DNA from: Thermacetogenium phaeum DSM 12270
GTDB taxonomy: Bacteria > Bacillota > DSM-12270 > Thermacetogeniales > Thermacetogeniaceae
DNA: 64,000 nt
Assembly: GCF_000305935.1 (NCBI RefSeq)
Contig: NC_018870.1
Span: forward strand, 327,942 to 391,941
Direction of reading: 5' to 3'
In this document: one piece after another, positions 2,051 through 29,799 of the stretch
Layout of the letters: every line of letters starts with the position of its first letter
How positions within the stretch are numbered: position 1 is the first letter of the stretch
Translations under genes and position numbers: made by a program
Notes under the pieces: generated by a model
The model's database searches: none
What the model was told of the DNA's origin: nothing
The model's input: only the letters and a program-made list of their open reading frames with translations

Positions 2051-2122
2051 TTGTCAGAACACTCTTCGTTCGAACAAAAAAACCACCTCCCTATCTCGCG
2101 TAGAGCAGTGTGATGGACGGAA

Positions 2123-2283
2123 AACAGGCAGGTCTCCTGGCTCGGGTTCATTAGCTCCTGCGCCTTCCCATCCTGGATGCAGGACAGTGGCGTTGTGCAG
2201 GGGCGTCCCCCTCACAGTGGCGCGACCGCGCCGGATTTTCACCGGCTTCCCTTTTCAGCCTTGTGTGACAAGGCCACCTGTTT
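2123..2283 (-). ncRNA. Cobalamin riboswitch (minus strand)
   Basis: Read on the minus strand, this contains the class-defining elements in order: AACAGGTGG (P1 5' arm), GGGAAGCCGGTGAAAATCC, GCGCCACTGTGA (the B12-box region), a second GCCACTG, the GGATGGGAAGGCGC segment, GAGCCAGGAGACCTGCC and the closing CCTGCCTGTT arm. The 5' and 3' ends pair to form P1. It is 168 bases upstream of the secreted DUF4430 protein gene on the same strand, with a stem-loop in between, and would repress that gene when adenosylcobalamin is plentiful. Confidence 0.93.
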
Positions 2284-2421
2284 CCGGGATATTTGATTGT
2301 CGTTCAACCTGTAAGTTCAACAGAACTCGTTAAAATCCTGCCTGCCTTTCCAAAATTTTTTTCGTCCAGCATCTGCCGAAAGCTCCGGGGCAGTGCCGGC
2401 GTCCGCACGCCCCGGCAATTC

Positions 2422-3796: not shown

Positions 3797-5197
3797 TCAG
3801 CAGTAACGGTGGCGGGTGAATTCCACGGCGGTCATCTGCGCTTCGGCTGCCGACTCCTTTTTGGACAGAAGCTTCATCTCGCGGAAGATGAAGCCGGCGG
3901 TTATCGTGGCCGCAAGGGCATCGGCGATCGGGGCCGTTCTCCACACCCCGTTTATTCCCCAGAAGTGGGGGAGGATGAGGAGCAGGGGGATGAAGAACAG
4001 CACCTGGCGGGAGAGGCTTAAGACCGCCGCCTGCTTCGCCTTGCCGACGGCCTGGAAATAGTGAGAGCAGGTCACCTGAAAGCCGATGATGAAGATCATC
4101 CCGAAAAATACGGTCATGGCGTTGGCCGTCATGCTGATCAGCGCCGTATCCCCTTCGGTGAACAGTCCGGCAATCTTGAGCGGCCACATCTGGATGATCA
4201 GATAGCCGACTATCGAGACGCAGCTGGCGGCGATCACCGCCTTTTTCAGGGTCTCCTTGACCCTGCCGTACTGCCGCGCTCCGTAGTTGAAGCCGATGAT
4301 CGGCTGGGCTCCCTGGCTCAGTCCGAGGACGGGCATCAGCAGCAGACCACCGATGCTCATCATAATGCCTATTGCAGAGAGGCCGAGGTCGCCGCTGTAT
4401 CTCAAGACCGCCTTGTTCAGGAGCACCTGCTGCAGGCAGTTGGCTATCTGCAGGGCAAAGGGGGCGAATCCGATGGAGATTACGTTGAGGATGATCGGCA
4501 GCCGCGGGACGAAGTTCTTCAGCCGCAGCTTAATTAAGCTCCGTCCGGTAAGGTAGTAGCTGAGCACCCAGATGGTAGCGAAGAGCTGGCCGGTGACGGT
4601 GGCGAGGGCCGAGCCCTTGATCCCCATGTGGAAGTGGAAAATGAATACGTAGTTTAAAACCCCGTTGATCAGGGCGCCTAAAACCTGGGTGGACATCGCC
4701 ATGATCGGGTTTCCTTCCGCCCGGATGAAGTTGTTCATTCCCATCCCAAGGCTTCCGAAGACTGAGCCCAGCATGATAATGTGCATGAAGTCGCGGGCAT
4801 AGGGCAGCACCTCATCGTTGGCGCCGAAGAGCCTCAAGATGGGTTCGGGGAAGAAGAAGTAAAGGATTGCAAAGCAGAGAGGCAGCAGGATCAGCAGGAC
4901 CGTGCCGTTGGCTGCCACCGCTTCTGCCTCTTCCTTTTTCTGTTCGCCCAGGCGGATGGAAATCAGGGCCGTCGTTCCTACCCCGATGAGCAGGGAGAGG
5001 GCCATCAGTATGATCATCGGGGGGAAGGCTACGGTTGTGGCGGCAATGGCCAACCGCCCGACTCCGTGTCCGACGAAGACCCGGTCCACGACGTTATAAA
5101 GGGCGTTGCACATCATCCCCGTGATGGCCGGCCAGGAAAAGTGCCACAATAAGCGGCCGACAGGGGCGTGCCCGAGTTCATGGGAGCGCTCATCCAT
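3797..5197 (-). CDS. MATE-family multidrug/cation efflux transporter
   Basis: A 466-residue polytopic membrane protein with about 12 hydrophobic segments. It has the duplicated MATE pattern: PAITGMMCNALYNVVDRVFVG at the start of the first half, and the GLSQGAQPIIGFNYGARQ motif in the second half. It belongs to the MepA/DinF-type branch, exporting drugs or organic cations using a Na+ or H+ gradient. The ATG at 5197 (MDERSHELG) is chosen because AGAGGTG is about 8 bases upstream; a longer frame begins at 5221. A TATAAT element on the minus strand at 5307-5312 may be its -10 box. No partner gene is adjacent. Confidence 0.92.
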   Translation of the reverse strand: MDERSHELGHAPVGRLLWHFSWPAITGMMCNALYNVVDRVFVGHGVGRLAIAATTVAFPPMIILMALSLLIGVGTTALISIRLGEQKKEEAEAVAANGTVLLILLPLCFAILYFFFPEPILRLFGANDEVLPYARDFMHIIMLGSVFGSLGMGMNNFIRAEGNPIMAMSTQVLGALINGVLNYVFIFHFHMGIKGSALATVTGQLFATIWVLSYYLTGRSLIKLRLKNFVPRLPIILNVISIGFAPFALQIANCLQQVLLNKAVLRYSGDLGLSAIGIMMSIGGLLLMPVLGLSQGAQPIIGFNYGARQYGRVKETLKKAVIAASCVSIVGYLIIQMWPLKIAGLFTEGDTALISMTANAMTVFFGMIFIIGFQVTCSHYFQAVGKAKQAAVLSLSRQVLFFIPLLLILPHFWGINGVWRTAPIADALAATITAGFIFREMKLLSKKESAAEAQMTAVEFTRHRYC

Positions 5198-13153: not shown

Positions 13154-13299
13154 AAAAAAAGGCTGTGGGGGGTTCCCACAGCGAATTTATAGGTACTGAT
13201 GCCGATCTGCATTTTCACCGGGAAAGGCTGCTGCCACAACGAAACCGGCCGCTGGAAAGGGTCCAACGGCCGGTTTTACTGTCGGCTGCTTTGATCTCC
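13154..13299 (-). repeat. Copy A of a 146-bp dispersed structured repeat with intrinsic-terminator end
   Basis: The same 146 bases recur at 31753-31898 with about six differences and no gaps. On the minus strand it starts with a hairpin of about 15 bp (AAACCGGCCG pairing with CGGCCGGTTT), runs through about 60 bases, and ends with GCTGTGGG / CCCCACAGC followed by seven Ts, a strong intrinsic terminator (13154-13183). The sequence outside the two borders does not match. It could be a small RNA gene, a MITE, or the tail of a lost mobile element. Confidence 0.8.
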
Positions 13300-13419
13300 T
13301 TTCCGCATTGGGAGGCCTACCTGTTTCCAGGTAAACCCTGACGGTCCGACGGCCATAGCCTTCAAGGGCGACAGGCACTGTGGACTCGGAGAAAAGATGC
13401 ACTTTTCAAGAAAGGTTCA

Positions 13420-15306: not shown

Positions 15307-15499
15307 TAACAAAACCGGAGATGTATATAATACAAATGATAAATAACAAATAAGTACTGCTGCAAAAAGTCCATTTGAGTTCATGGAAAGCCGATATTTA
15401 GTGTTCTTTTTGGCTGTCAGCCTATTAGAGGTGCACTTGCCTGGACGACTAAATCGCTATTTCTGAAGTGGTATCACACAATTAAATAATTAAATAAGG

Positions 15500-15665
15500 C
15501 TCCAGGTGCCCCGGTGTGAGCAGCCGGGGAGAATAGGGAATCAGGTGAAAGTCCTGAGCGGTGGGGCCACTGTGAATAGCGAGCTGCTCCAAAAAACCAC
15601 TGGATAGTGATATCTGGGAAGGTGGAAGCCAGCGATGAGCTATGAGCCAGTAGACCTGCCTGGAG
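15500..15665 (+). ncRNA. Cobalamin riboswitch upstream of the corrinoid salvage operon
   Basis: All conserved parts are visible in order: CTCCAGG (P1 5' arm, 15500-15506), GGGAATCAGGTGAAAGTCC, GGGGCCACTGTGA (B12-box region), a CCACTGG, the TGGGAAGGTGG segment, ATGAGCCAGTAGACCTGCC and the closing CCTGGAG (15659-15665). An intrinsic terminator follows at 15729-15760. It should switch off the downstream chelatase/transport/CbiZ operon when cobalamin is plentiful. Confidence 0.95.
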
Positions 15666-15728
15666 TTTCGACTTGAGCGCCTCCCATCCAGAGGTCCAAG
15701 CTGGCTGTTTAATTATGGTTGAATTGCG

Positions 15729-15760
15729 ATCCCGGCCCATGGAGGCCGGGATTTATTTAT
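15729..15760 (+). terminator. Intrinsic terminator of the riboswitch leader
   Basis: ATCCCGGCC (15729-15737) pairs perfectly with GGCCGGGAT (15744-15752) over a 6-base loop, followed by TTTATTTAT. It fits the off-state terminator of the upstream riboswitch. It is also the kind of site into which group IIC introns insert, immediately after the stem. Confidence 0.85.
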
Positions 15761-15925
15761 GTGCGCCCGGCATGGGCGGAGGCTTATGGGTGACAGTCTA
15801 TGCGGCGGGTAGATGGAGGAAAAGTCAACGCTCTTACCCGGGGAGGCCTGCCAGGCACGCTGGGTAATCTGGCAACCCGCACTGGAAGGTGCGGCTGAAC
15901 TGGCAGGAGTCGGCAAAGAGGCCTT
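15761..15925 (+). mobile_element. 5' fragment of a group IIC intron (domain I), lacking the reverse transcriptase
   Basis: The sequence starting at 15761 is GTGCGCCCGGCATGGGCG, the conserved 5' end of bacterial group II introns. It is followed by segments typical of class C domain I, such as GGGTGACAGTCTATGCGG, AAGTCAACGCTCTTACCC, GGAAGGTGCGGCTGAAC and GGCAGGAGTCGGCAAAGAGG. It directly follows an intrinsic terminator, the preferred class C target. No maturase gene and no domain V are present before the next gene at 16006, so this is a truncated, dead copy. The 3' limit is approximate. Confidence 0.72.
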
Positions 15926-16005
15926 GTCTGAACCGAAAGAGCGAGAGCGGCTGGCAGAAAGATGCCCGATTATAAATTGGGAGCAGCATTGGAGGAGATG
16001 TAACC

Positions 16006-17046
16006 ATGGACGGCACAAAAAGGTGTTTTCCATTTACCGCCATTGTTGGCCAGGAGCGGATGAAGGAAGCCCTTATTCTAAATGTGATCAATCCTCTGCT
16101 GGGCGGTGTATTGATCAGGGGTGAAAAGGGGACGGCCAAATCCACAGCAGTGCGCGCTCTGGCCGAGTTGCTGCCGGAAAGGAAGCAGGTGGCGGATTGT
16201 ATGTTTGGGTGTGATCCCGATGACGAAAGCGCCATGTGTGATACCTGCCGGGAGAGGAAGCGCAAGGAAGGAAGACTGGCAGTAAGGAAATCGAAGATGA
16301 GGGTTGTGGAGCTGCCGATCAGCGCCACCGAGGATAGGGTAGTCGGCACGCTGGACATCGAACATGCCATCAAAACAGGAGAGAAGAGGTTTGAACCGGG
16401 GATCCTGGCCCAGGCCAATCGCAATATCCTCTATGTCGATGAAGTGAACTTGCTGGAGGATCATGTTGTGGATCTTCTGCTTGACGCTGCCGCCATGGGG
16501 GTCAATGCCATCGAGAGGGAGGGGATCTCCTACAGCCACCCCTCAAGATTTGTTCTGGTGGGGACGATGAATCCCGAGGAGGGTGATTTGCGGCCACAGC
16601 TTTTGGACAGATTCGGTCTGGTGGTGGATGTGACCGGGGAGAAGGATCCGGTTACCCGGGCCGAGGTGATCAAAAGGAGACTCCAGTACGAACAGGATCC
16701 GGAGTCTTTCGCTACAGCGTACCAAGAGGCGCAGCAGGAGCTCAGCCACCGGATTGAAGCGGCAAAATTGCGCCTGCCGGAGGTGTCGTGCAGCGATGAG
16801 ATGCTGGAAATAGCTGCCAAGATATCGATTGCCATGGATGTTGACGGCCACAGAGCCGATATCTACATGATCAAGGCGGCAATCACTATTGCGGCATTCA
16901 ATAATCGGGAGAGTGTTACCTTTGAGGATATGCTCAAAGCCGCCTCACTGGTATTGCCGCACAGGATGAGGAGGAAACCCTTTGAGGAGGGTATCATCGA
17001 CTTCTCCAAGGTCGAGGAAATGATTTACAGTAGCGCGAGAGGGTGA
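16006..17046 (+). CDS. ChlI/BchI-type metal-chelatase AAA+ ATPase subunit
   Basis: A 346-residue protein. The N-terminal AAA+ domain has Walker [11 protein letters not shown] (residues about 38-47), Walker [12 protein letters not shown], and the family-specific [21 protein letters not shown] Cys-containing insertion ([17 protein letters not shown]) is typical of Mg-chelatase I subunits. The C-terminal helical lid extends to RRKPFEEG. In known systems the I subunit forms a ring with the D subunit and drives metal insertion by a large H subunit; here the H-type partner would be the CobN encoded at 22520. GGAGGAGATG precedes the ATG. First gene of the riboswitch operon. Confidence 0.92.
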
Positions 17047-17053
17047 ATCTCAG

Positions 17054-18979
17054 GTGGGACACAACTTGGTCTTTCCGTTCGCTGCTGTGGAAGGGCAGGA
17101 TGCTGTCAAAAAGGCTCTGATCTGGAATGCAGTCAACCCGTCGATCGGTGGGGTGCTGATCTCCGGAGAGAAGGGAACCGCCAAGTCCACCCTTGTCCGG
17201 GGGCTGGCAGCTTTGTTGCCCGGGATAAAAGTGGTGGAACTCCCGCTCAATGTGACCGAAGACTGCTTGGTGGGGACCCTGGATCTGGAGAGAGCGGTCA
17301 AGGAAGGGAAGAAGGCCTTCGAACCGGGGATCTTCCAGAAAGCCGACGGGAACATCCTTTATGTCGATGAAGTTAACCTGTTGCCCGAGAATATAGTCAA
17401 TTGCATCCTGGAAGTGTCTGCTTCAGGGGTCAATCGGGTTGAGCGGGAGGGGATATCTTACAGCCATCCGTCAAGATTTGTGTTGGTGGGAACCATGAAC
17501 CCCGAGGAGGGGATGCTGCGGCCGCAGTTACTCGACAGGTTTGGGCTTTATGTCGAAGTCAAGGGACTGGAGGATCTGGCCTTAAGGAAGGATGTCATCA
17601 AAAGGAGGCTTGAGTATGAAAGGGACCCGGCGGGCTATGTGAAAAAGTGGCAGAAGGAAAGCGAAGAGATCAGGGCAAGCATCGCTCAGGCGCGTGAGAG
17701 GCTGGAAAGGGTGCAGGTCACCGAGCATGCTATGAGTCTGGCTGGCGAGATGGCGGAGAAAGGGAATTGTGCCGGTCACCGGGCGGAAATTGCCATTGTG
17801 GAAACCGCAAAGTCCATTGCAGCCATCTGCGGCAGGAACCGCATTATCATCGAGGATATTAAAGAGGCTGCGCGATATGCGCTGCCCCACAGGGTTAGAG
17901 AAAGAAACCAGACCTGCATCTGTCTGCAGGAACAGGAGCCTCCGATTGATGAAACCGATGAGCGGAAGAGGGGTGCCGATCTCCCGGAAGGAGATCGGAG
18001 CAGGGATGAGAGCGTCACACAGGAATACCAGAATCTCAATCAGGAACCGGAGAACGGCGGAGATTCTCCGGCAGGTAGTGGTGAAATGGATGGAGGTAAA
18101 AACGGCAGTCAGCAGGCAGGAGCATTCGGAAGCGAGGAAAATGTCGAAGAGCCGGGCGAGATCTTTGCCGTTGTCCCGTGGGAGATCAGGCCGCAAGACA
18201 GGCTGCAGCGCAGAGGAAGTGGAAAGAGAAGCCTGTCCGCGACTAAGGGTAGGGAGGGGAGGTATGTAAAATATTGTTTCCCCAGGGGAAAGCCGCGGGA
18301 TATTGCCTTTGACGCCACCATCCGGGCGGCGGCACCGTTCCAGAGGCAAAGGGAAAAGGACGGCGTGGCGCTGGCAATTTGTAATTCCGATTTTCGAGAA
18401 AAGATCAGGGAACGCCGAACCGGCAGCACCATCCTCTTTGTGGTCGATGCCAGCGGATCAATGGGGGCCAACCGGAGGATGAGGGCCGTGAAGGGTGCGG
18501 TCTTGTCGCTGCTAACCGATGCCTATCAAAAGCGGGATAGGGTTGGGATGATCTCTTTTAGAAAGAACGATGCGGAACTCCTCCTCGGAGTGACCAGAAG
18601 CGTTGACCTGGCACAGAAAAAACTGAGAGACCTGCCCACAGGAGGGAGGACACCGCTTGCGGCCGGACTGTACAGGGGATACGAGGTGCTCAAGGTGGCA
18701 ATGCTCAGAGATCCCCAGACGATACCCTTTATTATCCTCGTGACTGATGGAAGGGCCAATGTAGCGCTGAATGGAGGCGATCCTGTCGATGACGCCCTGC
18801 GTATGGCCCGGAAAATTGCCGCAGAGGGGATAAAAAGCCTGGTCATCGACACGGAAAAGGGTTATCCCAGGATGGGACTGGCGCGCAAAATTGCCGAAGC
18901 CATGAAGGCCGGATATCTGGAGTTGGATGAGCTTGAATCTGCCCAGATCGTCTGGTCGGTGAAGAATTTCGTCAGATGA
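17054..18979 (+). CDS. ChlI-ChlD fusion: AAA+ ATPase with C-terminal VWA (integrin I) domain
   Basis: A 641-residue protein starting at GTG 7 bases after the previous stop. Residues about 1-290 repeat the ChlI-type AAA+ module ([47 protein letters not shown]). Residues about 290-410 form a polar, acidic linker, as in ChlD/BchD. Residues about 455-641 are a VWA domain with the MIDAS motif DASGSMG near 465, a Thr in [10 protein letters not shown] and an Asp in LVTDGRA. This matches the D subunit of Mg/cobalt chelatases. With the preceding I subunit and CobN it makes a complete three-part chelatase. Confidence 0.93.
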
Positions 18980-19082
18980 ACAGGATAGCTACGACCCCTA
19001 GGGAAGGGCCGGTTATCCTTTAGGTTTATTTGAACGGCAGATCCTTACTATGTCATAACCACAAATGAGGAGGTTTGATTTT

Positions 19083-20207
19083 ATGTCGAGGTCGTTGCAA
19101 AAGCTCTTGGTTGTCATAAGCGTGCTTTTATCTCTGTTTTTACTGGCAGGCTGCAGCAAGGCAGACAAGGCGTCAGTAGCTGGTGCTGTCACCTTGAAAT
19201 ATGCCAGGGGTTTTAAGATTGAGAACCTTGCTGACGGCTGTAAAAAGGTCACCGACGGCAATAAGCGAGTCATGCTCCTGGTTCCCAGGGGCCAAAAAGT
19301 ACCGTCCGAATATAAAAACCTGCCTGTGGTTTATACTCCGGTGAAAAGGGTTGTGATAACTTCTACAACCCAGGCTTCCCTGATGAGGCCTTTGGGCGTG
19401 TTGGGCAGCATCGTCGGAGTGACCACTGAAAAGGATCAGTGGTATATCGATCAGGTCAAGGCGGGGATGGAGAGCGGCAGCATTCAGCTGGTTGGAGGCG
19501 GGATGGGGCCTTTGGATTACGACAAGATCGTGGCCTTGAAACCGGATCTCGTTTTCATGTCCACAGGAGGGCCTAATGATGCCCGGGCGCTGCAGAAATT
19601 GGAGGAGCTAAACATTCCGGTAGCTGTAGACAATGAATGGCTGGAAAATGATCCCTTGGGAAGGCTCGAGTGGATCAAGTTTATCGCCGCTTTCTATGAC
19701 AAGGAGCAGCAGGCATCTGATTTCTTTGATGGTGCCGAGAAAAGGATCGCAGAAATCACGGCGAAGGTGGCCAAGGTCAAAGACAAACCGAAGGTTATAT
19801 GGGGGTTGATTTACCAGGGTAAGGCTTATGTTCCTGCCGCAGATTCCTATGTGGCCAGGATGATCGCCATGGCCGGAGGTGATTACCTTTTTAAAGGCAA
19901 TAAAGGAACAGGCAGCAGGGCGATTACCTTTGAGGAGTATTATGCCCTGGGCAAAGAGGCGGATATCTATATCGATGATACCATGATGAACCTTGGCCGC
20001 AATACGATTGCCCACATCACCGACCAGTCGAGACTTATGGCGGATTTGCCGGTGCTCAAGAAAGGCAACGTATGGGGTTACCAGCCCTGGTACTGGCAGT
20101 CTTTGGATAAAACCGATGAGGTGATCGAGGACCTGGCGGCTATTTTCCACCCGGCTCTTTTCCCGGGTTATCAATTAAAACACTTCTTGAAGCTACCGCC
20201 GGCTTAA
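19083..20207 (+). CDS. btuF: Corrinoid/siderophore-type ABC transporter substrate-binding lipoprotein
   Basis: A 374-residue protein. The lipoprotein signal peptide ends LLSLFLLAGCSK, with the lipobox Cys near residue 24. The rest is a periplasmic-binding-protein class III fold: VKRVVITSTTQASLMRPLG, IVALKPDLVFMSTGG, RLEWIKFIAAFYDKE and a C-terminal YWQSLDKTDEVIEDLAAIFHP. The start at 19083 is chosen because AGGAGG lies 9 bases upstream. Followed by a BtuC-like permease and BtuD-like ATPase under the B12 riboswitch, it is most likely the corrinoid receptor. Iron-complex receptors share the fold, so the substrate is inferred from context. Confidence 0.85.
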   Translation: MSRSLQKLLVVISVLLSLFLLAGCSKADKASVAGAVTLKYARGFKIENLADGCKKVTDGNKRVMLLVPRGQKVPSEYKNLPVVYTPVKRVVITSTTQASLMRPLGVLGSIVGVTTEKDQWYIDQVKAGMESGSIQLVGGGMGPLDYDKIVALKPDLVFMSTGGPNDARALQKLEELNIPVAVDNEWLENDPLGRLEWIKFIAAFYDKEQQASDFFDGAEKRIAEITAKVAKVKDKPKVIWGLIYQGKAYVPAADSYVARMIAMAGGDYLFKGNKGTGSRAITFEEYYALGKEADIYIDDTMMNLGRNTIAHITDQSRLMADLPVLKKGNVWGYQPWYWQSLDKTDEVIEDLAAIFHPALFPGYQLKHFLKLPPA

Positions 20208-20269
20208 GGTCAAACAACAGGTTATACTCTAGGGACATGATTTTAATGGGGTCCTCGGAGGAGGTGTTG

Positions 20270-21298
20270 TTGATCGCATTCCGTCTTGACAAGAGGAACA
20301 AGATGCCGTTGCTTTTTGTTCTGTTTGTGGCGATGCTGATCCTGTTTGCGGTTTTAAACATTGTGCTGGGGTCGGTTCGGATCTCCTTGCACGATCTGGT
20401 GCGGGTTCTGCTCCGCCAGGGAGAGAACGCTGTCTACGATAAGGTGGTATGGGATATCCGCTTGCCCCGTACCCTGGCTGCCATCCTCGGGGGAGCGGCG
20501 CTCTCTGTCAGCGGCCTGCTGCTGCAGATCTTCTTTCGCAATCCGATTGTCGATCCCTATGTGCTGGGAGTCTCTTCCGGCGCCACCCTGATAGTGGCCA
20601 TCCTGATGCTGACAGGGGTCGTCCTGGAGATGGGAACGATACCGCCGTATCTGCTGAGCCTGGGGGCCTTCGCCGGCGCCCTGGCGGTGGTCATCCTGAT
20701 CGTGGCTGTATCGGGGAGGGTCAAGCAGGTGGTCACTTTGCTGGTCGTCGGTTTGATGATCGGCTACGTGTGCGGGGCGGGAACCACCATCCTGGAGGCT
20801 CTTGCGGAGAAGGAGAACCTTCACAACTTTGTTCTCTGGACTATGGGGAGTTTTTCAGGCTTCGGGTGGGAACAGGTGAGTGTTTTGGCGGTGGCGGGCG
20901 GAGCGCTGCTGGCTGTCTCCTATCTTCTCTGCAAGCCGCTGAATGCCCTGTTGCTGGGGGAGGACTATGCCAGGAGTATGGGAGTGAACATCAAGTCGCT
21001 GAGGGTCGTTCTTGTGTTGATCGCCAGCACCCTCACAGCTCTGGTGACGGCCTTCGCCGGGCCGGTGGCCTTCATCGGACTGGCCGCCCCCCACATCGCC
21101 CGGCTGACCCTCGGAACATCGGACAACAGGGCTCTGATCCCGGCAACGATTTTGCTGGGAGCGGTGATCACCAACTTGTGCGATCTATTGGCGAGGATTC
21201 TCTTTGCTCCTGTGGAGCTACCGATCAGTGCCATCTCCTCTTTGATCGGCGCCCCGATCGTCATCGTTTTGCTGATGAAAAGGAGGACCAGCCTATGA
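20270..21298 (+). CDS. btuC: BtuC/FecCD-family ABC transporter permease
   Basis: About 342 residues with roughly ten transmembrane segments and the FecCD family signatures RLPRTLAAILGGAALSVSG, NPIVDPYVLGVSSGA and the cytoplasmic-loop/C-terminal GPVAFIGLAAPHIARL. It forms the membrane channel for corrinoid uptake with the adjacent ATPase and binding protein. The start is uncertain: GGAGGAGG at 20256-20263 favours TTG at 20267 or 20270, whereas an ATG at 20237 has no good site. Its TGA overlaps the ATG of the ATPase gene. Confidence 0.9.
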   Translation: MIAFRLDKRNKMPLLFVLFVAMLILFAVLNIVLGSVRISLHDLVRVLLRQGENAVYDKVVWDIRLPRTLAAILGGAALSVSGLLLQIFFRNPIVDPYVLGVSSGATLIVAILMLTGVVLEMGTIPPYLLSLGAFAGALAVVILIVAVSGRVKQVVTLLVVGLMIGYVCGAGTTILEALAEKENLHNFVLWTMGSFSGFGWEQVSVLAVAGGALLAVSYLLCKPLNALLLGEDYARSMGVNIKSLRVVLVLIASTLTALVTAFAGPVAFIGLAAPHIARLTLGTSDNRALIPATILLGAVITNLCDLLARILFAPVELPISAISSLIGAPIVIVLLMKRRTSL

Positions 21299-22494
21299 AT
21301 GTGATGCAGACAAAGGAATTGAGTGTAGGCTATGACGGCAGGACTGTGGTTGCCGACATCAATCTGGAAGCGTTAAAGGGGCAGTTCATCTGCCTTTTGG
21401 GGCCCAACGGCTCCGGAAAATCGACCATCCTGCGCTGTCTGGCAGGGCTGTTGGCCCCTTTGCATGGTTCGGTATTTCTTAAAGACAATTTGCTTTACCA
21501 TATGGAGCCCAAGGATTTATCCAGGACGATGGCGGTGGTTTTGACAGAACGCCTGTCCCCCGGCCTGATCACGGTTTTTGAAATTGTTGCCATGGGCAGG
21601 TATCCCTATACCGACTTCTTCGGGCATCTGTCCCGGGAGGATGAAGAGAAAACCTGGGAAGCCCTGTGCCTGGTCGGTGCCCGGGACCTGGCGGAGAGAT
21701 ACTTCAATGAACTGAGCGATGGAGAAAGGCAGAAAGTGCTGATCGCCCGGGCGCTGGTGCAGGAGCCGGAGGTGATCATTCTCGATGAGCCAACAACCTA
21801 CCTCGATGTGAAACACCGCCTGGAGGTGATGGAGATACTGCGGGAGCTCAGCCGGAGAAAAGGGATCACCGTGATCCTCTCCCTGCATGAGATCGACATT
21901 GCCCTTAAGAGCTGCGAGACAGTCCTTCTGGTCAAAAACGGTAAAATACTTGCCTCCGGGCCTCCTGAAGAGATCTTAACTGAAGAAATGGTGGCAGAGG
22001 TTTACGGAATAGAATCCGCCCACTTCAGCAGTTGCCTGGGTGGAATTGAAATGAGCAACAGTGGGGGAGCGCAGGTCTTCGTGCTGGCCGGCGCCGGCAG
22101 CGGTGCCCCTGTTTACCGCCTGCTCAACAAGTATGGGTTCAGCATTATCACAGGGGTAATCCATGAAAATGACATCGACTATTATGTGGGAAGGGCTTTA
22201 GGGGGAGCGGTGGTCGGTGAGCAGCCCTTCGAGGAGATCAGCCTGTCCAACGTTGATCAGGCGGCCAGTCTCGGCCGGCAGGCGGAGTATATCGTTGATG
22301 CCGGTTACCCGATCGGCTCCCTGAACAGGCGCAACGTCGAGCTCGCCAGGCGGCTGATGGCACAGGATAAGGTCATCTACTCTCTGCGCAGCCGTCAGGA
22401 ATTCGAGGCGCTGTACGGCCTCGACGGCAGCAGGCCGTTTTATTGCCCTAATATCGGTGCTCTGGCGCAGCGACTGAGTAGGCGGGAGAAATAA
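21295..22494 (+). CDS. btuD: BtuD/FepC-type ABC ATPase with an extra C-terminal domain
   Basis: A 399-residue protein. Residues about 1-245 are a standard ABC ATPase: Walker A LLGPNGSGKST, signature LSDGERQ, Walker B VIILDEPTTYLD, H-loop LSLHEID. Residues about 250-399 are an extension with a nucleotide-binding-like start (VFVLAGAGSGAPVYRLLNKY) and alternating hydrophobic strands, not part of normal BtuD (about 250 residues). I do not recognise it; ATPase-CbiZ fusions are known, but this is not CbiZ, which is separate in this operon. The ATG at 21295 overlaps the permease stop, with AAAAGGAGG upstream. Confidence 0.9.
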   Translation: MNVMQTKELSVGYDGRTVVADINLEALKGQFICLLGPNGSGKSTILRCLAGLLAPLHGSVFLKDNLLYHMEPKDLSRTMAVVLTERLSPGLITVFEIVAMGRYPYTDFFGHLSREDEEKTWEALCLVGARDLAERYFNELSDGERQKVLIARALVQEPEVIILDEPTTYLDVKHRLEVMEILRELSRRKGITVILSLHEIDIALKSCETVLLVKNGKILASGPPEEILTEEMVAEVYGIESAHFSSCLGGIEMSNSGGAQVFVLAGAGSGAPVYRLLNKYGFSIITGVIHENDIDYYVGRALGGAVVGEQPFEEISLSNVDQAASLGRQAEYIVDAGYPIGSLNRRNVELARRLMAQDKVIYSLRSRQEFEALYGLDGSRPFYCPNIGALAQRLSRREK

Positions 22495-22519
22495 TCGTGC
22501 GGCATGGGAGAGGATGAGG

Positions 22520-25500
22520 ATGAGACGCATTGTATTCCTGAGCAACATGGAACGCCAGTACATGATGATGATAAAGGCGCGGGACAGCCTGCTCCAGGAA
22601 GGGAGGTTGAAGGCCGAAGGCCTGACGGTGTTTTTGAACGACATTCCCTGGGGGGATAAATGGCAAAAGACGTTTGCGGCAAGCGATATCGTTATTTTCA
22701 CCTGGATGGGCAGCGGCCTTGATACGGATTTTCTCAAAAAAGCGGCCGATTTTTTAGCAGACAATAAAATCACGCATGTCATGTTGATCGCTGCTCCCGG
22801 TGTGGAGGATTTGCGCTACGGGATTACGCCGGAAGACCGGGAGACGCTGCAAAAATACCTGGTATACGGAGGGTTGGAAAATTACCGGAATCTCTGGTTA
22901 TGGTTGGGCAGCAGGTTTTGCGGTGAAAAGTGCGATTATCAGCTTCCGCAGCCGATGTTATGGAACGGGATATTCCACCCCGAAGCTGATCGAGCTTTTA
23001 CGGATCTTAGAGAATACAGGCGCTTGTTTTGTCGGCCTGACCGGCCTACGGTAGGGATTCTGTTTTATCGCGACGAGTGGATTAATGGTGACCTGGCGTA
23101 TCAGACCGCCCTGGTAGAGGCAATAGAGCGACAGGGGATGAACGCCGTGGCGGTATTCAGCCAGGGTGCGGCAGATCCGGAATTGAAGGCGCCTGGGCTG
23201 ACTGAAGCGATACAGGCGTACTTTTATGAACAGGGCAGGCCGGTGATCGATGTGTTGATCAACACGATTAAATTCTCTCTTACGGCGACGGGCGCAACGG
23301 ATCTGGAATCACTGAAGCAATTGAAGGTGCCGGTATTGCAGGCCTATACGCTACTGCGTTCACGGGAGGAATGGGAAAACTCTAGCGAAGGCATGATCCC
23401 GATGGAGATTGCCGTCAGTGTAACCATGCCGGAGCTTGACGGGATCATCCACGGTGTACCTGTGGCCGGGAGGGAGTATCTGCCTGATGGCAACGCAGCC
23501 TATCTGCCGCTTGCGGAACGGATCGACATGGTGGCGCGCAAGGCCGGAAAGTGGGCGAGATTGCGTCATAAAGCAAACAGCGAGAAAAAGATCGCCGTTA
23601 TCTTCCATAATTACCCCCCTACCAATTCTAATATCGGCAGCGCCGCAGGATTGGATTCGATAGAAAGCGTCAGGCTGTTGCTGGCCGAGATGGTAAAGCG
23701 CGGCTACCATGTTGAACACATTCCCGATGACAGCCGGTCGTTTATGAGTGAACTGGTGGCTCATACCACCAATGACCGGCGTTTTATTACAGAAGAGCAG
23801 ATTCAACAGGGCGAAAAGCTGAGCGGGGAGCAATACCGGCAGTTCTTCGACACTTTAGCGGAGGAAACCCGAATTCAACTGGTGCGTGACTGGGGTAAGC
23901 CTCCGGGCAATGTGTTTCAGTACGACGGGAACCTGCTGGTGCCCGGGATGTTGAACGGTAACGTCTTTATCACAGTGCAGCCGCCGCGCGGTTTTGGTGA
24001 AGATCCATCCAAGCTTTATCACTCACCGGATTGCGCTCCAACACATCATTATCTGGCCTATTATCACTGGATCCGCAACATCTGGCAGGCGGATGCTGTT
24101 ATCCATGTCGGCACGCACGGTTCCTTGGAATGGCTTCCCGGCAAAGGTGCGGCGCTGTCGCCCAGGTGTTACCCTGACTTGGCCCTCGGAGATCTGCCGA
24201 ATATCTACCCCTACTGGATCACCGTTGTCGGTGAAGGCATCCAGGCCAAGCGCCGCGGTGCCTCCTGCCTGATCGGATATCTCTCTCCGCCGATGGGCAG
24301 CGCGGGGACGTACGATGAGCTGGCCGAACTGGAAAGATTGCTTGACGAGTATCTTCATTTCCGGCAGAACCAGCCGGGCAATACAGAGGTGATGGCAAGG
24401 CTTATCAGAGAAAAAGTGCGGGAGGCCGATCTTCAGGATGATGTTGCCGAACAGCCTGAGGAGCCCTTTGACGATTATGTTCAGCGCCTGCATGCTTACA
24501 TAACCGATATCAAGAACATGCAGATCCGGGTTGGGCTCCACGTTCTGGGCTCCCCACCCAGGGATGAAGGATTGGTGGAGTATCTGCTGGCTCTCACAAA
24601 TATGGACAATGGGGAAATACCCTCTTTGAGGCAGGCAGTTGCAGCGGTTTACGGTTTTGAATATTATGAGCTGCTGGAGCAGAGCGGCAGGATGCTTCCT
24701 GACGGCAGCAAGACCTATGGTGCCTTGCTCGAAGAGATCCAGGCCAGGTGCCGAGAGATTATTGAACTGCTGGCCGGGCACGGTTTTGATCCGGAACAGG
24801 CGGGGCTGATCTGCCAGCTGCCCTGGGCCGTCGAGGCGGAACAGGGAGTAAGGGACCGGCTGGTGCAGGTAGGGAGATACATCTGCCGGACGCTGGTGCC
24901 TCATCTGGAGCAGACCAGGCAGGAGATCACCAACCTCCTTGATGCTTTGGAAGGATGCTATGTAGAGCCGGGGCCGGCAGGTGCTCCCACCAGCGGCATG
25001 GCCGATGTCTTGCCGACAGGGCGCAATTTTTACGGCGTCGATCCCCGCGCCTTGCCGACGCCTGTGGCTTGGGAAATCGGGAAGAAGATGGGGGACGAAG
25101 TTATTGAGCGCTATCTTGCCGAAGAAGGACGCTATCCTGAAAACATTGGTATTGTGATCTGGGCTACCAGCAACGAGCGCAGCCATGGCCAGTGCATCGC
25201 CGAATTCTTGTACCTTCTGGGGGTGCGTCCGGTATGGCAGCGCGGCAGCCAGCGGGTGGTGGACCTGGATGTTATTCCCATAGAGGAACTGAAACGCCCC
25301 CGCATTGATGTGACGGCCCGGATCAGCGGCCTGTTCCGCGACAGCATGCCGATGTGCATTAACTTGATGGAGAAAGCAGTCGAACTTGTGGCGAATTTGA
25401 ATGAAAGCCCGGAAATCAATTATGTGCGCAAACATGTGCTGCAAGATGTGCAGAAGCTGAAGCAAGAGGGAATTGAGAGCGATCAGGCCTGGGTGCAGGC

Positions 25501-26236
25501 GAGCTATCGCATTTTCGGCGATCCCCCGGGGACCTACGGCGCAGGGATAAGCGATCTCCTGGAGGCGAAAAACTGGGAGACCATCGATGATCTGGCCAGC
25601 GTCTATGTGCGCTGGGGCGGTCATGCCTATGGCGCCAAAGCGAGGGGGGTCTTCTTGCCGGAGCTCTTCAGCCACCGTATGGCCAGTCTCGATGTGACCA
25701 TTCAGAATGAAGACAACCGGGAAATCAGCATGTTGAACTCGGATGACTACAACGCCTATCACGGCGGCATGATTGCCGCGGTTCGCAGTTTAAAAGGACA
25801 GGCCCCGCGTTCGTACTGCGGCGACAGCTCGGACCGGCAAAAGGTGATCACGCGCAGCGTGCAGGAAGAAATCAAACGATTATTCCGCGGCGAAGCCATC
25901 AATCCCAGATTTATAGAAGGAATGAAACAGCACGGGTATAAGGGAGCGGCCGATCTGGCCAATTACGTAGCGCATAGTTATCAATGGGACGCAACCAGTG
26001 ATGTGCTGGAAGACTGGATGTATCAAAAATTTGCCGAAAAATATGCCTTTGATAAGGATATGCAAAAATGGATGAGGGAAGTAAACCCCTGGGCGCTGCA
26101 GCGGATCTTGGAAACCCTGCTGGAGGCCTCGCAGCGCGACCTGTGGCATGCTGACGAACAGACCAAAGGGGAGTTGCAGGCTCTCTATCTCGCCATCGAG
26201 GGGGAACTGGAAGAGCGCAGCGATGAGCAGCGGTAA
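22520..26236 (+). CDS. cobN: CobN/BchH-family chelatase large subunit
   Basis: About 1238 residues, the normal size for CobN. Family motifs include VIHVGTHGSLEWLPGKGAA near residue 530, LPNIYPYWITVVGEG, the PTGRNFYGVDPRALPTPVAW segment, WATSNERSHGQCIAE and NDDYNAYHGGMIAAV-like sequence near 1075. It binds the tetrapyrrole and inserts the metal ion using the ChlI and ChlD ATPases encoded upstream. The ATG at 22520 is preferred over 22514 because GGGAGAGG lies 6 bases before it. CobN is best known from aerobic cobalamin synthesis; in an anaerobe with a salvage operon its substrate is unclear and could be a metal-free corrinoid. Confidence 0.93.
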   Translation: MRRIVFLSNMERQYMMMIKARDSLLQEGRLKAEGLTVFLNDIPWGDKWQKTFAASDIVIFTWMGSGLDTDFLKKAADFLADNKITHVMLIAAPGVEDLRYGITPEDRETLQKYLVYGGLENYRNLWLWLGSRFCGEKCDYQLPQPMLWNGIFHPEADRAFTDLREYRRLFCRPDRPTVGILFYRDEWINGDLAYQTALVEAIERQGMNAVAVFSQGAADPELKAPGLTEAIQAYFYEQGRPVIDVLINTIKFSLTATGATDLESLKQLKVPVLQAYTLLRSREEWENSSEGMIPMEIAVSVTMPELDGIIHGVPVAGREYLPDGNAAYLPLAERIDMVARKAGKWARLRHKANSEKKIAVIFHNYPPTNSNIGSAAGLDSIESVRLLLAEMVKRGYHVEHIPDDSRSFMSELVAHTTNDRRFITEEQIQQGEKLSGEQYRQFFDTLAEETRIQLVRDWGKPPGNVFQYDGNLLVPGMLNGNVFITVQPPRGFGEDPSKLYHSPDCAPTHHYLAYYHWIRNIWQADAVIHVGTHGSLEWLPGKGAALSPRCYPDLALGDLPNIYPYWITVVGEGIQAKRRGASCLIGYLSPPMGSAGTYDELAELERLLDEYLHFRQNQPGNTEVMARLIREKVREADLQDDVAEQPEEPFDDYVQRLHAYITDIKNMQIRVGLHVLGSPPRDEGLVEYLLALTNMDNGEIPSLRQAVAAVYGFEYYELLEQSGRMLPDGSKTYGALLEEIQARCREIIELLAGHGFDPEQAGLICQLPWAVEAEQGVRDRLVQVGRYICRTLVPHLEQTRQEITNLLDALEGCYVEPGPAGAPTSGMADVLPTGRNFYGVDPRALPTPVAWEIGKKMGDEVIERYLAEEGRYPENIGIVIWATSNERSHGQCIAEFLYLLGVRPVWQRGSQRVVDLDVIPIEELKRPRIDVTARISGLFRDSMPMCINLMEKAVELVANLNESPEINYVRKHVLQDVQKLKQEGIESDQAWVQASYRIFGDPPGTYGAGISDLLEAKNWETIDDLASVYVRWGGHAYGAKARGVFLPELFSHRMASLDVTIQNEDNREISMLNSDDYNAYHGGMIAAVRSLKGQAPRSYCGDSSDRQKVITRSVQEEIKRLFRGEAINPRFIEGMKQHGYKGAADLANYVAHSYQWDATSDVLEDWMYQKFAEKYAFDKDMQKWMREVNPWALQRILETLLEASQRDLWHADEQTKGELQALYLAIEGELEERSDEQR

Positions 26237-27287
26237 ACCGTTGAAGATGCTGGTAATGAGCCTGACGGGGTGGTGCAACTTTGCATGCCGCTACTGTTAT
26301 GCCGAGGAACACCCCCATGGGATGATGAGCCTCGATACTGCCATTCGGGCGGTCGAACTGGCGGCAGCTGGGGGTAAGCCTTTTCACCTACAGTTTAGCG
26401 GCGGCGAGCCTCTCCTCAACTTTGAGGTGATGCAGGGGATCGTCCGCTACGTGCAAAAGCGGCGGATTCCCGCTATTATGCAGGTGCAGACAAATGCCTC
26501 CCTGCTGGACAGGGAAAGGGTGTCCTTCCTGCGGGCGGCGCGGGTGGGTGTCGGCATCAGTCTGGACGGCAGGCCGGGGATCAATGACCGTTTGCGTCGT
26601 CTGCCGGATGGAAAGGGGGCCAGCCTTCAGATACTGCGCGGTGCCGAACATCTGGCTGCAGAGGGGATGGAAATCGGCATAACCTGTGTCATTGCCAATG
26701 AGAACGTCAGCCAGTTGGCCGGTGCGGTGGAGATGGCCTACTATCTGGGGAACGTCCGGAGAATCGGCTTTGATCTGCTGCGCCGCCAGGGGCGGGGTAA
26801 AATGCTGACACCCCCGCCGGCCGAGGCAGTGGCAGAGGGCATGTTGGAAGCCCTTCGGACGGCAGAGCGGCTCGCCCGTTTTACCGGAAGAGCCCTGCTG
26901 ATTTCGCAACTGGAACGGGTGGAAATCCTTGCGCGGGGAACGGCTTCAGGTTTTGGGCACTGCCACGCAATGAACGGAGAGGCGGCCTTTGTGGATGCCG
27001 AGGGTCGGATTTATGCCTGTTCCTCATTGGTCGGAGACGAGGACTTCCGGCTGGGAGACGTCTGGGGTGGTATTGACGTCAAGAGGCAACAGGCTGTTGC
27101 AGCACTGATCTGGGATAGCATGGCCTTTTGCCGGGAATGCCCTGCTTTTTCCCTGTGTGGTGGAGGCTGTTTTGCCCGCTGGTACGGCTCCGGTTGCGTC
27201 GGCAGAGCGTATGAGGCGGAATGTGCTCTGAAACGGGTGTGTATCCGGTGGTTTCAACAACAACGGGGGGAGAAGATAGAATCATGA
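26223..27287 (+). CDS. Radical SAM enzyme with SPASM-type C-terminus
   Basis: A 354-residue protein. The radical SAM cluster motif CNFACRYC (residues about 18-25) binds the 4Fe-4S cluster that cleaves S-adenosylmethionine. QFSGGEPLLN is the SAM-contacting GGE motif. The C-terminal Cys-rich region (GHCHAMNG, YACSSLVG, CRECPAFSLCGGGC, then later Cys) fits an auxiliary-cluster SPASM domain. Family members usually modify peptides or cofactors. The ATG overlaps the end of cobN by 14 bases, and its stop overlaps the nitrilase start, so it is firmly within the operon. Its corrinoid-related substrate is unknown. Confidence 0.9.
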   Translation: MSSGKPLKMLVMSLTGWCNFACRYCYAEEHPHGMMSLDTAIRAVELAAAGGKPFHLQFSGGEPLLNFEVMQGIVRYVQKRRIPAIMQVQTNASLLDRERVSFLRAARVGVGISLDGRPGINDRLRRLPDGKGASLQILRGAEHLAAEGMEIGITCVIANENVSQLAGAVEMAYYLGNVRRIGFDLLRRQGRGKMLTPPPAEAVAEGMLEALRTAERLARFTGRALLISQLERVEILARGTASGFGHCHAMNGEAAFVDAEGRIYACSSLVGDEDFRLGDVWGGIDVKRQQAVAALIWDSMAFCRECPAFSLCGGGCFARWYGSGCVGRAYEAECALKRVCIRWFQQQRGEKIES

Positions 27288-28054
27288 AAGTGGCGTTGTT
27301 GCATTTGGATTTGAGCGGTGGGCCGCAGGACGCCAACCTGCCCATGCTGCAGCAGGCCCTTGGTTTGGCTGCGGGAGAGGGGGCAAACTGGGTTGTGACC
27401 CCGGAGATGGCCTTGCAGGGCTACTTCTTTGCTGAAAAAACTGCTCAGGTGAAGATCCCGGTACAGCCGGACGCTTCACTGGGTCCCGTTATTCAGTTGG
27501 TTATCAGACACCGGCTGACTCTTTTCCTGGGGTGCGCGGAACGGGATGCCGAGACAGGCAAGTGTTATAACAGTTGCCTGGTGATCGGATCGGATGGGAG
27601 TGTCCTGGGGCGCCACAGGAAAACGCGATCCCACAAAAAAGGGGCAGAGGCCTGGGTGACAGAGGGGGATAAGCTGGAACCCATATCCTGCCCGGGGATG
27701 AAGGTCGGGATTATGGTCTGTGCCGATTCCTGGTTTGTCGACAAGGCGCGGGTTTTAAGGGATAAGGGAGCAGAAGTCCTCGTTGTGCTGGCAGCTTGGC
27801 CGCCAACAGAGGAATGCGGCCCGGGCGACTGCTGGGAGAGGTGCTCCATGGCCACCGGCCTGCCCGTATGGGTCTGCAACCAGACGGGAAACCGTGAAGC
27901 GATCGATTTCAGCCAGGCACAGAGTGTGGTGGTCGCCGACGGTAAGGCCCTGTTCAGCTACAGCGGTTTGCAGCCTGCTGTGTTGCTCTTCGATTGGGAT
28001 TGCGAGCGGAAGCGTGTGTTGTCGGACCGGTTTAAAGTGGTTGCTGTAGACTGA
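27284..28054 (+). CDS. Nitrilase/carbon-nitrogen hydrolase family protein
   Basis: A 256-residue protein with the family catalytic triad visible: Glu in VTPEMALQGYFF (about residue 40), Lys in GRHRKTRSHKKG (about 111) and Cys in GIMVCADSWF (about 145). The family hydrolyses C-N bonds of amides or nitriles, or acts as a glutaminase domain. The ATG overlaps the radical SAM stop (ATGA), with a GGGGGGAGA site upstream. In a corrinoid operon a side-chain amide of the ring is an attractive substrate, but that is inference. Confidence 0.9.
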   Translation: MKVALLHLDLSGGPQDANLPMLQQALGLAAGEGANWVVTPEMALQGYFFAEKTAQVKIPVQPDASLGPVIQLVIRHRLTLFLGCAERDAETGKCYNSCLVIGSDGSVLGRHRKTRSHKKGAEAWVTEGDKLEPISCPGMKVGIMVCADSWFVDKARVLRDKGAEVLVVLAAWPPTEECGPGDCWERCSMATGLPVWVCNQTGNREAIDFSQAQSVVVADGKALFSYSGLQPAVLLFDWDCERKRVLSDRFKVVAVD

Positions 28055-28085
28055 TTTTTTGCCTAGTGAAAGGGGAGAAGGAGAG

Positions 28086-29195
28086 ATGTTACTCTGTACC
28101 TTATCAACCGGTGATACCGTCTATCGGTATGAAAAAAGGATCGTGGTCAGTTTCAAGCAGCCGCGCAAGGTTCTCAGCACTTCAGTATTAAATGGAGGCT
28201 ACCGCGAAGACCTGACGGCAGTCTTCAATTATGATTGCAGTACAGGAAACGATACCTGCTGTTCACTGCGTGCCCCAACCTATGAGGAGCATATGCGGCT
28301 GGAGGCAAAGGAACTGGGATTTGATCCGGAGACGGTTACCGGTATGGGAACAGCCGCCCAGATGGAAAACGCGGCTATCAAGATATTAAAACATAAAGAC
28401 CTGACGGTAACGGCGATCGTCACCGGCGGTGTGGAAGTCAATGGAGGCCGGGTGGGAGATCCGGCCGACTATTTTCAGCCTGTTGATAAAGGGATCCTGC
28501 CTAAGCCGGGGACGATCAACATCATGCTGGTAATCGACGCCGATATGCCCCCGGGGACCATGGCAAGAGCGCTGGTGACCTGCACGGAAGCCAAAACGGC
28601 AGCTCTGCAGGAACTGATGGCCGGCAGCAATTATTCCAACGGGCTGGCGACAGGATCGGGAACGGACCAGACCATAATCATTGCCAATCCGGCTTCAGCA
28701 TTGTATTTGCAGAGTGCAGGAAAACACTCCAAACTGGGCGAACTGATCGGCCGTTCGGTTAAATCTGCCGTCAAGGAGGCGCTCTTGAGGCAGACAGGTT
28801 TATCGCCGCAGATGCAGCACAGCGTTCTGCGGCGCCTGAAGCGCTTCGGAGTTAACGAAGAAACGCTGTGGCAGGAATATGCGAAGGACGGGAGCGGAGA
28901 GATTGAGCGGCAACGATTTCTGGACTGCCTGCACCGGATAGATCGGGATCCGCGACTTGTGACCTACACCTCTTTGTACGTTCACTTGCTGGACCAACTC
29001 ATCTGGGAACTTTTATCAGGGGAGGAAGCCGTTCAGGCAGGTAATGAATTGTTGTTGCTGGTTGCCGGCAAGTTCGGCGTTCCCGGGACAGTGATAGGCG
29101 GCCCGGAGCTTCAGGATTGCCTTCAGGCATGGGCGGATATGCTGGTTAAGATTGTGAGAATGAATCTCAATGTTGAGCAAAGGATTGAGCATTGA
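28086..29195 (+). CDS. cbiZ: Adenosylcobinamide amidohydrolase CbiZ with C-terminal extension
   Basis: A 369-residue protein. Residues about 1-240 carry the CbiZ pattern: VLSTSVLNGGYRED, VTGMGTAAQMENAAI, VTGGVEVNGGRVGDPADY, PGTINIMLVIDADMPPG, TEAKTAALQELM, GTGTD-like SGTDQTIIIA and HSKLGELIGRSV. CbiZ removes the aminopropanol arm of adenosylcobinamide to give adenosylcobyric acid, so incomplete corrinoids can be rebuilt with the cell's own lower ligand. Residues about 245-369 are a helical extension I do not recognise; CbiZ alone is roughly 220-240 residues. AGGGGAGAAGGAG precedes the ATG at 28086, which is favoured over the upstream in-frame start at 28059. Confidence 0.92.
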   Translation: MLLCTLSTGDTVYRYEKRIVVSFKQPRKVLSTSVLNGGYREDLTAVFNYDCSTGNDTCCSLRAPTYEEHMRLEAKELGFDPETVTGMGTAAQMENAAIKILKHKDLTVTAIVTGGVEVNGGRVGDPADYFQPVDKGILPKPGTINIMLVIDADMPPGTMARALVTCTEAKTAALQELMAGSNYSNGLATGSGTDQTIIIANPASALYLQSAGKHSKLGELIGRSVKSAVKEALLRQTGLSPQMQHSVLRRLKRFGVNEETLWQEYAKDGSGEIERQRFLDCLHRIDRDPRLVTYTSLYVHLLDQLIWELLSGEEAVQAGNELLLLVAGKFGVPGTVIGGPELQDCLQAWADMLVKIVRMNLNVEQRIEH

Positions 29196-29265
29196 AAGAC
29201 CGGTCATTGTTCTGAAAAACGGTTTTTAAGGAGCGGAGAAGTGTGGAAGATGAAAGGGTGATTTT

Positions 29266-29799
29266 ATGTCAGAAAGAAAGGGTTTAATTATAGTTCATAC
29301 CGGAAACGGCAAAGGGAAAACAACTGCGGCTCTGGGGATGGGGATGCGCGCATGGGGGCAGGGGCTCAAGGTTTTGGTGATCCAGTTCATCAAAGGCAAC
29401 CGGATTTATGGCGAACTGAAAACTATTGCCAGACTGGGGCCGGATTTTGAGATACGCCAGATGGGCGAAGGCTTTATTAAGGGCCCGAATGATGATGCGG
29501 TGGCAGAGCACCGGAGAGCTGCCGAAGCAGCCTTGCAGGCGGCCGGAACGGAAATCTCATCAGAAAAATGGGATCTGGTCATCCTGGATGAGATTAATTA
29601 CGCAATTAGTTACGGGCTCGTGCCTCTGGATGCGGTGTTGGGATTACTGGATCAGAAACCTCCCTCATTGCACCTGGTCTTGACCGGACGGGATGCCAGC
29701 CCGGAGGTCATCGAACGGGCCGACCTGGTTACCGAAATGAGAGAGGTTAAACACCCTCTTAAAAATGGGATCAAGGCTCAAAAGGGCATAGAGTTTTAG
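29266..29799 (+). CDS. cobO: Corrinoid adenosyltransferase (CobA/CobO/BtuR family)
   Basis: A 177-residue protein of full family length. It has the P-loop HTGNGKGKTTAALGMGMRA near residues 11-28, IQFIKGNRIYGEL, LVILDEINYAISYGL and LTGRDASPEVIERADLVTEM. It transfers the 5'-deoxyadenosyl group from ATP to reduced cob(I)inamide or cob(I)alamin. CbiZ acts on adenosylated cobinamide, so the two adjacent enzymes form consecutive steps. The ATG follows AAGGGTG. Confidence 0.96.
   Translation: MSERKGLIIVHTGNGKGKTTAALGMGMRAWGQGLKVLVIQFIKGNRIYGELKTIARLGPDFEIRQMGEGFIKGPNDDAVAEHRRAAEAALQAAGTEISSEKWDLVILDEINYAISYGLVPLDAVLGLLDQKPPSLHLVLTGRDASPEVIERADLVTEMREVKHPLKNGIKAQKGIEF

Follow-up and report, generated by a model that had tools for sequence, protein, structure and literature searches.

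The analyzed window, a stretch of 64,000 nucleotides, spans positions 327942-391941 of a genome that consists of one contig of 2,939,057 bases. It contains a cobalt-chelatase/corrinoid-uptake operon behind a cobalamin riboswitch, and the features of this locus are collected in Table 1. In the Rfam search of the window, the aptamer scored far above the gathering score of 31.5 and was followed downstream by a terminator, consistent with a cobalamin riboswitch with a terminator platform. The T-rich tail of this terminator, TTTATTTAT, ends at 15760, and the terminator is the target of an intron insertion. The same riboswitch terminator is kept in a relative from another genus (G014) and in paralogous intron-free leaders of G001 and G008. 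The leader remainder carries a ribosome-binding-site-like GGAGGAG ahead of the ATG of the first operon gene. Two further RNA elements were found elsewhere in the window, namely, a Moco (molybdenum/tungsten cofactor) RNA motif at 13280-13403 (-) and a second cobalamin riboswitch at 2110-2296 (-).

Table 1. Features of the riboswitch leader and of the first operon genes (positions in the window)
Feature	Positions	Strand	Evidence
Cobalamin riboswitch aptamer	15487..15677	+	RF00174, 119.4 bits
Intrinsic terminator hairpin, riboswitch expression platform	15728..15753	+	10 pairs, 7 G-C
First 38 nt (nt 1-38) of a class C group II intron, with the 5' splice-site end GTGCGCCCGGCATGGGCG...	15761..15798	+	95% identity with nt 1-38 of the G014 intron; 5' end shared by the genome's intact copies
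Deletion scar, single TGACAGT (two TGAGAGT repeats kept in G014)	15791..15797	+	
Second piece, intron domain I, nt ~215-342 of the G009 intron; scar repeat common to the first piece	15791..15918	+	90% identity with the G009 intron across 128 nt
Leader remainder, no detectable intron sequence	15919..16005	+	Alignment score to the intron as for shuffled sequence
ChlI/BchI-like AAA+ chelatase subunit, first operon gene	16006..17046	+	TIGR02442 514.6 bits, TIGR02030 429.4 bits, both under curated cut-off
ChlD-like chelatase subunit (AAA + VWA)	17054..18979	+	

The original prediction, made from the DNA letters of the window, described a class C group II intron remnant at this place and proposed group II covariance models as a check. 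No Rfam group II family exceeded its curated threshold anywhere in the window. The nearest result was RF01998 (D1-D4-1) at 15873-15951, which reached 25.7 bits where the cut-off is 35 (E 0.017, 701 bases searched), a sub-threshold score attributable to the deletion of most of the modelled part. Therefore, we compared the DNA of the remnant with its own genome and with relatives. The remnant was matched at 15 further places in its own genome, 12 of these to the domain I part and three to the 5' end. The best match, a fragment at G000:C1:2023516, was 95% identical over the last 60 nt of the second piece, followed by matches of 77-80% over ~99 nt (E 1e-13 to 1e-21). The intact intron of the family member G009 (L095) aligned to the remnant with an E of 2.6e-44, and this intron itself passes RF02001 (149.7 bits) and RF01998 (75.2 bits). 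The 16-nt intron 5' end is present forwards in 62 of the 249 genomes of the phylum and, as a reversed control, in none of the 249, which, together with the homologue matches, excludes chance. Thus, both a conserved 5' end and a domain I homologous to class C introns are found in the insert, and these comparisons confirm it as the remnant of a class C (IIC) group II intron. In the relatives, the homologues of the sequence are intact or partly intact introns; the same sequence devoid of intron features was not found there.

Compared to the intact G009 intron, the remnant consists of intron nt 1-38 joined to nt ~215-342, with intron homology ending at ~15918, such that ~158 nt remain. An internal domain I piece of 182 nt is absent at the join. 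In the G014 intron, TGAGAGT occurs at nt 31 and 213, exactly 182 nt apart; a lone TGACAGT at the join, with exactly 182 nt missing, is what a deletion between direct repeats would leave. The 3' part of the intron was sought in 15919-16005, where the alignment of 15920-16006 to the G009 intron scored no higher than shuffled sequence. Neither domain V/VI nor a 3' splice site was found at the locus, RF00029 had no match in the window, and no intron-encoded reverse transcriptase/maturase lies between 15761 and 16005. The remnant thus lacks domain V/VI with the 3' splice site, a maturase at the locus, and a complete domain I; its 3' boundary with exon 2 is lost, and the original intron end is not visible in the sequence. 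Given the established biochemistry of group II introns, an RNA with neither domain V/VI nor maturase would be unable to splice.

Several elements of the original prediction were borne out by these results: the terminator stem (15728-15753, tail to 15760) is followed at once by the intron 5' end (from 15761), the class C identity agrees with intact copies in the same genome and in relatives, and the loss of the maturase and of domain V, and with them of splicing, holds in the comparison with the intact copies. Others had to be corrected. The predicted intron-like stretch, 15761-15925, is homologous to intact introns but ends at ~15918, and the ~150 bases described as class C domain I-like are indeed homologous but not continuous, being two pieces joined by the 182-nt deletion. 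The covariance-model check gave no family over threshold, only the weak RF01998 signal. Overall, the sequence comparisons support the earlier interpretation and refine it in four respects: the end point, the internal deletion, an insertion common to another genus, where it decayed differently, and the intron RNA in the leader, for which no sign of an activity was seen.

Most of the matches in the same genome are ORF-less introns of 662 nt with Rfam matches to RF02001, RF01998 (D1-D4), and RF00029 (domain V/VI). The intron L024 encodes a group II reverse transcriptase/maturase (L024 1753-3174; TIGR04416, 444.5 bits, cut-off 300). Nearly all copies in the genome begin with GTGCGCCCGGCATGGG directly 3' of a terminator hairpin, and the exceptions start directly behind the end of the preceding intron, in tandem arrays. 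The same intron 5' end was found behind terminator hairpins at about a dozen other sites of this genome, and nearly all of the 81 sites in other species that were located by a 5'-end pattern search lie behind terminator-like hairpins. These sites agree with the known insertion of class C introns behind intrinsic terminators (review PMC4424553), which the original prediction had invoked, and the window remnant occupies exactly this position.

Several other intron-related loci were observed in the same genome. The best-matching fragment belongs to a decayed class C fragment of the same subfamily as the remnant (L026, reverse complement 926-~1270; G000:C1:~2023230-2023575 (-)), which starts in the middle of domain I, directly after a terminator-like hairpin. 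In a third remnant (L292, G000:C1:2246685-2246700 (-)), two consecutive copies of the intron 5' end, GTGCGCCCGGCATGGGGTGCACCCGGCATGGGC, stand behind the terminator of a tRNA gene, and a candidate transposase-like sequence, judged by appearance, comes next. At L030 1319-2364 (-) (G000:C1:2880862-2881863), there are two tandem class C introns, the second of a different subfamily and closer to the window remnant in part of domain I. CRISPR-array-like repeats (translated FSPLFIGVMSAT) at L024 589-1353 are located just upstream of the terminator that precedes the maturase-encoding intron.

The same riboswitch-terminator-intron junction is found in G014, with 94.7% identity over 76 nt spanning the terminator and the intron. 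The G014 sequence aligns to the window at 15435-15848 with 92-93% identity and at 18406-29340 with 95.2% identity; between these blocks, a deletion in G014 has removed the remaining intron sequence, the chlI-like gene, and the part of chlD that encodes the N-terminus. G014 is a draft assembly, such that this deletion could in principle be an assembly error. Within the intron, G014 keeps a longer unbroken 5' piece (~270 nt) that includes the interior missing from the window. A common junction in an operon of 92-95% identity, from which different parts were lost, points to one insertion that decayed separately, and on this evidence we take the two loci to be a single insertion with independent decay. 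Independent insertions into the same terminator in the two genera could be imagined, as terminators are favoured by class C introns and related introns are present in both groups; however, identity between the two loci is 93-95% for the intron pieces and no different for the operon around them, whereas the remnant shares only ~77-80% identity with the intact copies of its own genome, which makes two insertions very improbable. By contrast, the leuS leaders of G014 and of the window's genome, which are homologous, share only 83% identity, and a search of G002 and G009, genus mates of G014, gave no chlI homologue beyond a weak distant match. Together, these results suggest that the operon was likely transferred horizontally. 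The leaders of G001 and G008, with the same riboswitch and terminator and no intron, precede other genes and indicate that the terminator is independent of the intron; these leaders are paralogous, and no strict empty site of the chelatase operon was found. It should also be noted that at L096 511-1119 (-) (G014:C33) the deletion fuses intron domain I in frame to the ChlD VWA domain. The resulting 202-aa ORF starts with an ATG inside the intron sequence (MEGKSTLLPGEARERRTGS...) and could be an assembly error.

The divergence from G014 is 6/90 for the remnant, 17/316 for the leader, and 19/574 for chlD (Fisher p 0.61 and 0.13); thus, the remnant does not diverge less than its neighbours and shows no sign of constraint or co-option. 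Co-option would mean that the kept domain I stems act on leader stability, transcription pausing, or translation start, which would also give a reason why 158 nt were kept; the retention of the remnant at the same place in two genera, and its G+C-rich and foldable sequence, are in favour of this possibility. Yet the folding energy of 15753-16005 is ordinary compared to shuffled sequence (z -0.45), and the parts of the intron that were kept differ between the two genera. Together with the unremarkable divergence, these observations make co-option unlikely. Even less credible is a short, still functional class C variant that splices with domains supplied in trans by other copies, for which one could cite the intact 5' splice-site end and the presence of intact introns and a maturase in the genome: domain I has lost 182 nt, and the locus yielded neither domain V/VI nor a 3' splice site. 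A 5' piece in G056 (L098), which is short by nature, gives a match of only 67% and is uninformative on activity. The insertion begins only after the aptamer and the terminator, and the ribosome-binding-site-like sequence and the start codon at 16006 follow downstream of the remnant, which is most likely an inert spacer in the leader, behind an untouched switch.

We hold it highly probable that an intron retro-inserted behind the cobalamin riboswitch terminator, decayed separately in two genera, and now persists as an inert spacer. In this scenario, a mobile class C intron retro-inserted behind the terminator hairpin, a target choice that is known and an event that the comparison shows. The complete intron would have been transcribed only upon riboswitch read-through and then spliced from the leader. 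After the operon came to be common to the two genera, each copy would have decayed on its own. In the window, recombination or slippage between the 7-nt direct repeats would account for the 182 nt lost from domain I, and a further deletion, beginning where domain I ends, would have extended as far as exon 2. The ~158 nt left would be capable of neither splicing nor mobility and would passively separate the terminator from the ribosome-binding site. Because the aptamer and the terminator are wholly upstream of the insertion, the switch presumably works as before.

A related configuration was found at the leuS locus of the same genome (L027 1976-4623 (-), G000:C1:2164475-2167122), where the space from the T-box terminator to the start codon of leuS is occupied by four intact, ORF-less class C introns of 662 nt each, arranged in tandem, end to end; the first three have the same sequence, from which copy 4 deviates at 14 positions. 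The T-box leader scores 119.5 bits with RF00230 and the encoded LeuRS 984.5 bits with TIGR00396. In the relatives examined, the leuS leader runs from the terminator to leuS with no intron, a true empty site. In G037 (L099), too, a class C intron follows a T-box. The attenuator cases found are thus the window locus with G014 (one event), L027, and L099. Elsewhere in the phylum, an Rfam scan covered 27 class C sites in other genomes and placed no riboswitch or T-box directly upstream of any of them, the nearest attenuators being a cobalamin riboswitch ~1.2 kb and a THF riboswitch ~0.65 kb away, and none of 81 further class C sites had a T-box motif within 350 nt upstream; hence, insertion behind attenuators is uncommon. 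The open-licence literature yielded nothing on point concerning class C introns in riboswitch or T-box leaders. Together, the window remnant and the leuS array show that attenuator terminators, too, serve as landing sites, and control of intron expression and splicing by the riboswitch or T-box state thereby becomes testable. We only tentatively entertain the idea that class C introns genuinely and repeatedly land at the attenuators of riboswitches and T-boxes, which would tie intron transcription and splicing to host metabolic signals. If so, the window remnant would be a dead example and the leuS four-intron array a possibly live one.

The leuS T-box leader also contains a tRNA-Ala (GGC) gene (L027 4645-4947 (-), with the tRNA at 4694-4768 (-); also L293-L312), located between the specifier part (GAACTCG, with the leucine codon CTC) and the antiterminator. 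In the window's genome, this tRNA-Ala is flanked by GGTAAATA and TATTTGCC, which could pair, and the tRNA may cap stem III. It was present in 20 of 20 leuS T-box loci scanned (own genome, family members, G029, and G040). No paper on a tRNA gene inside a T-box leader was found in the open-licence literature.

Compared to the class C introns known behind intrinsic terminators (PMC4424553), the remnant has the same 5' end, GTGCGCCCGGC, directly after the terminator stem and T-rich tail, and its intact relatives belong to the RF02001/RF01998 D1-D4 families. Unlike those introns, it is only 158 nt long, with no maturase or domain V/VI, and its terminator is that of a riboswitch, not of a gene end. 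Like known truncated bacterial introns, it is a deletion-derived, non-splicing fragment; conversely, it keeps the 5' end without the interior and the 3' part, and it permits a comparison of two versions of a single insertion that decayed separately. As in cobalamin riboswitches of RF00174 with a terminator platform, the aptamer and the terminator are intact upstream, although ~158 nt of foreign sequence set the terminator apart from the remainder of the leader. Insertion behind terminators and truncated bacterial introns are already known, and the locus is a largely ordinary relic; it cleanly documents how a retroelement entered a regulatory leader, left the switch untouched, and decayed in two lineages through identifiable deletions.
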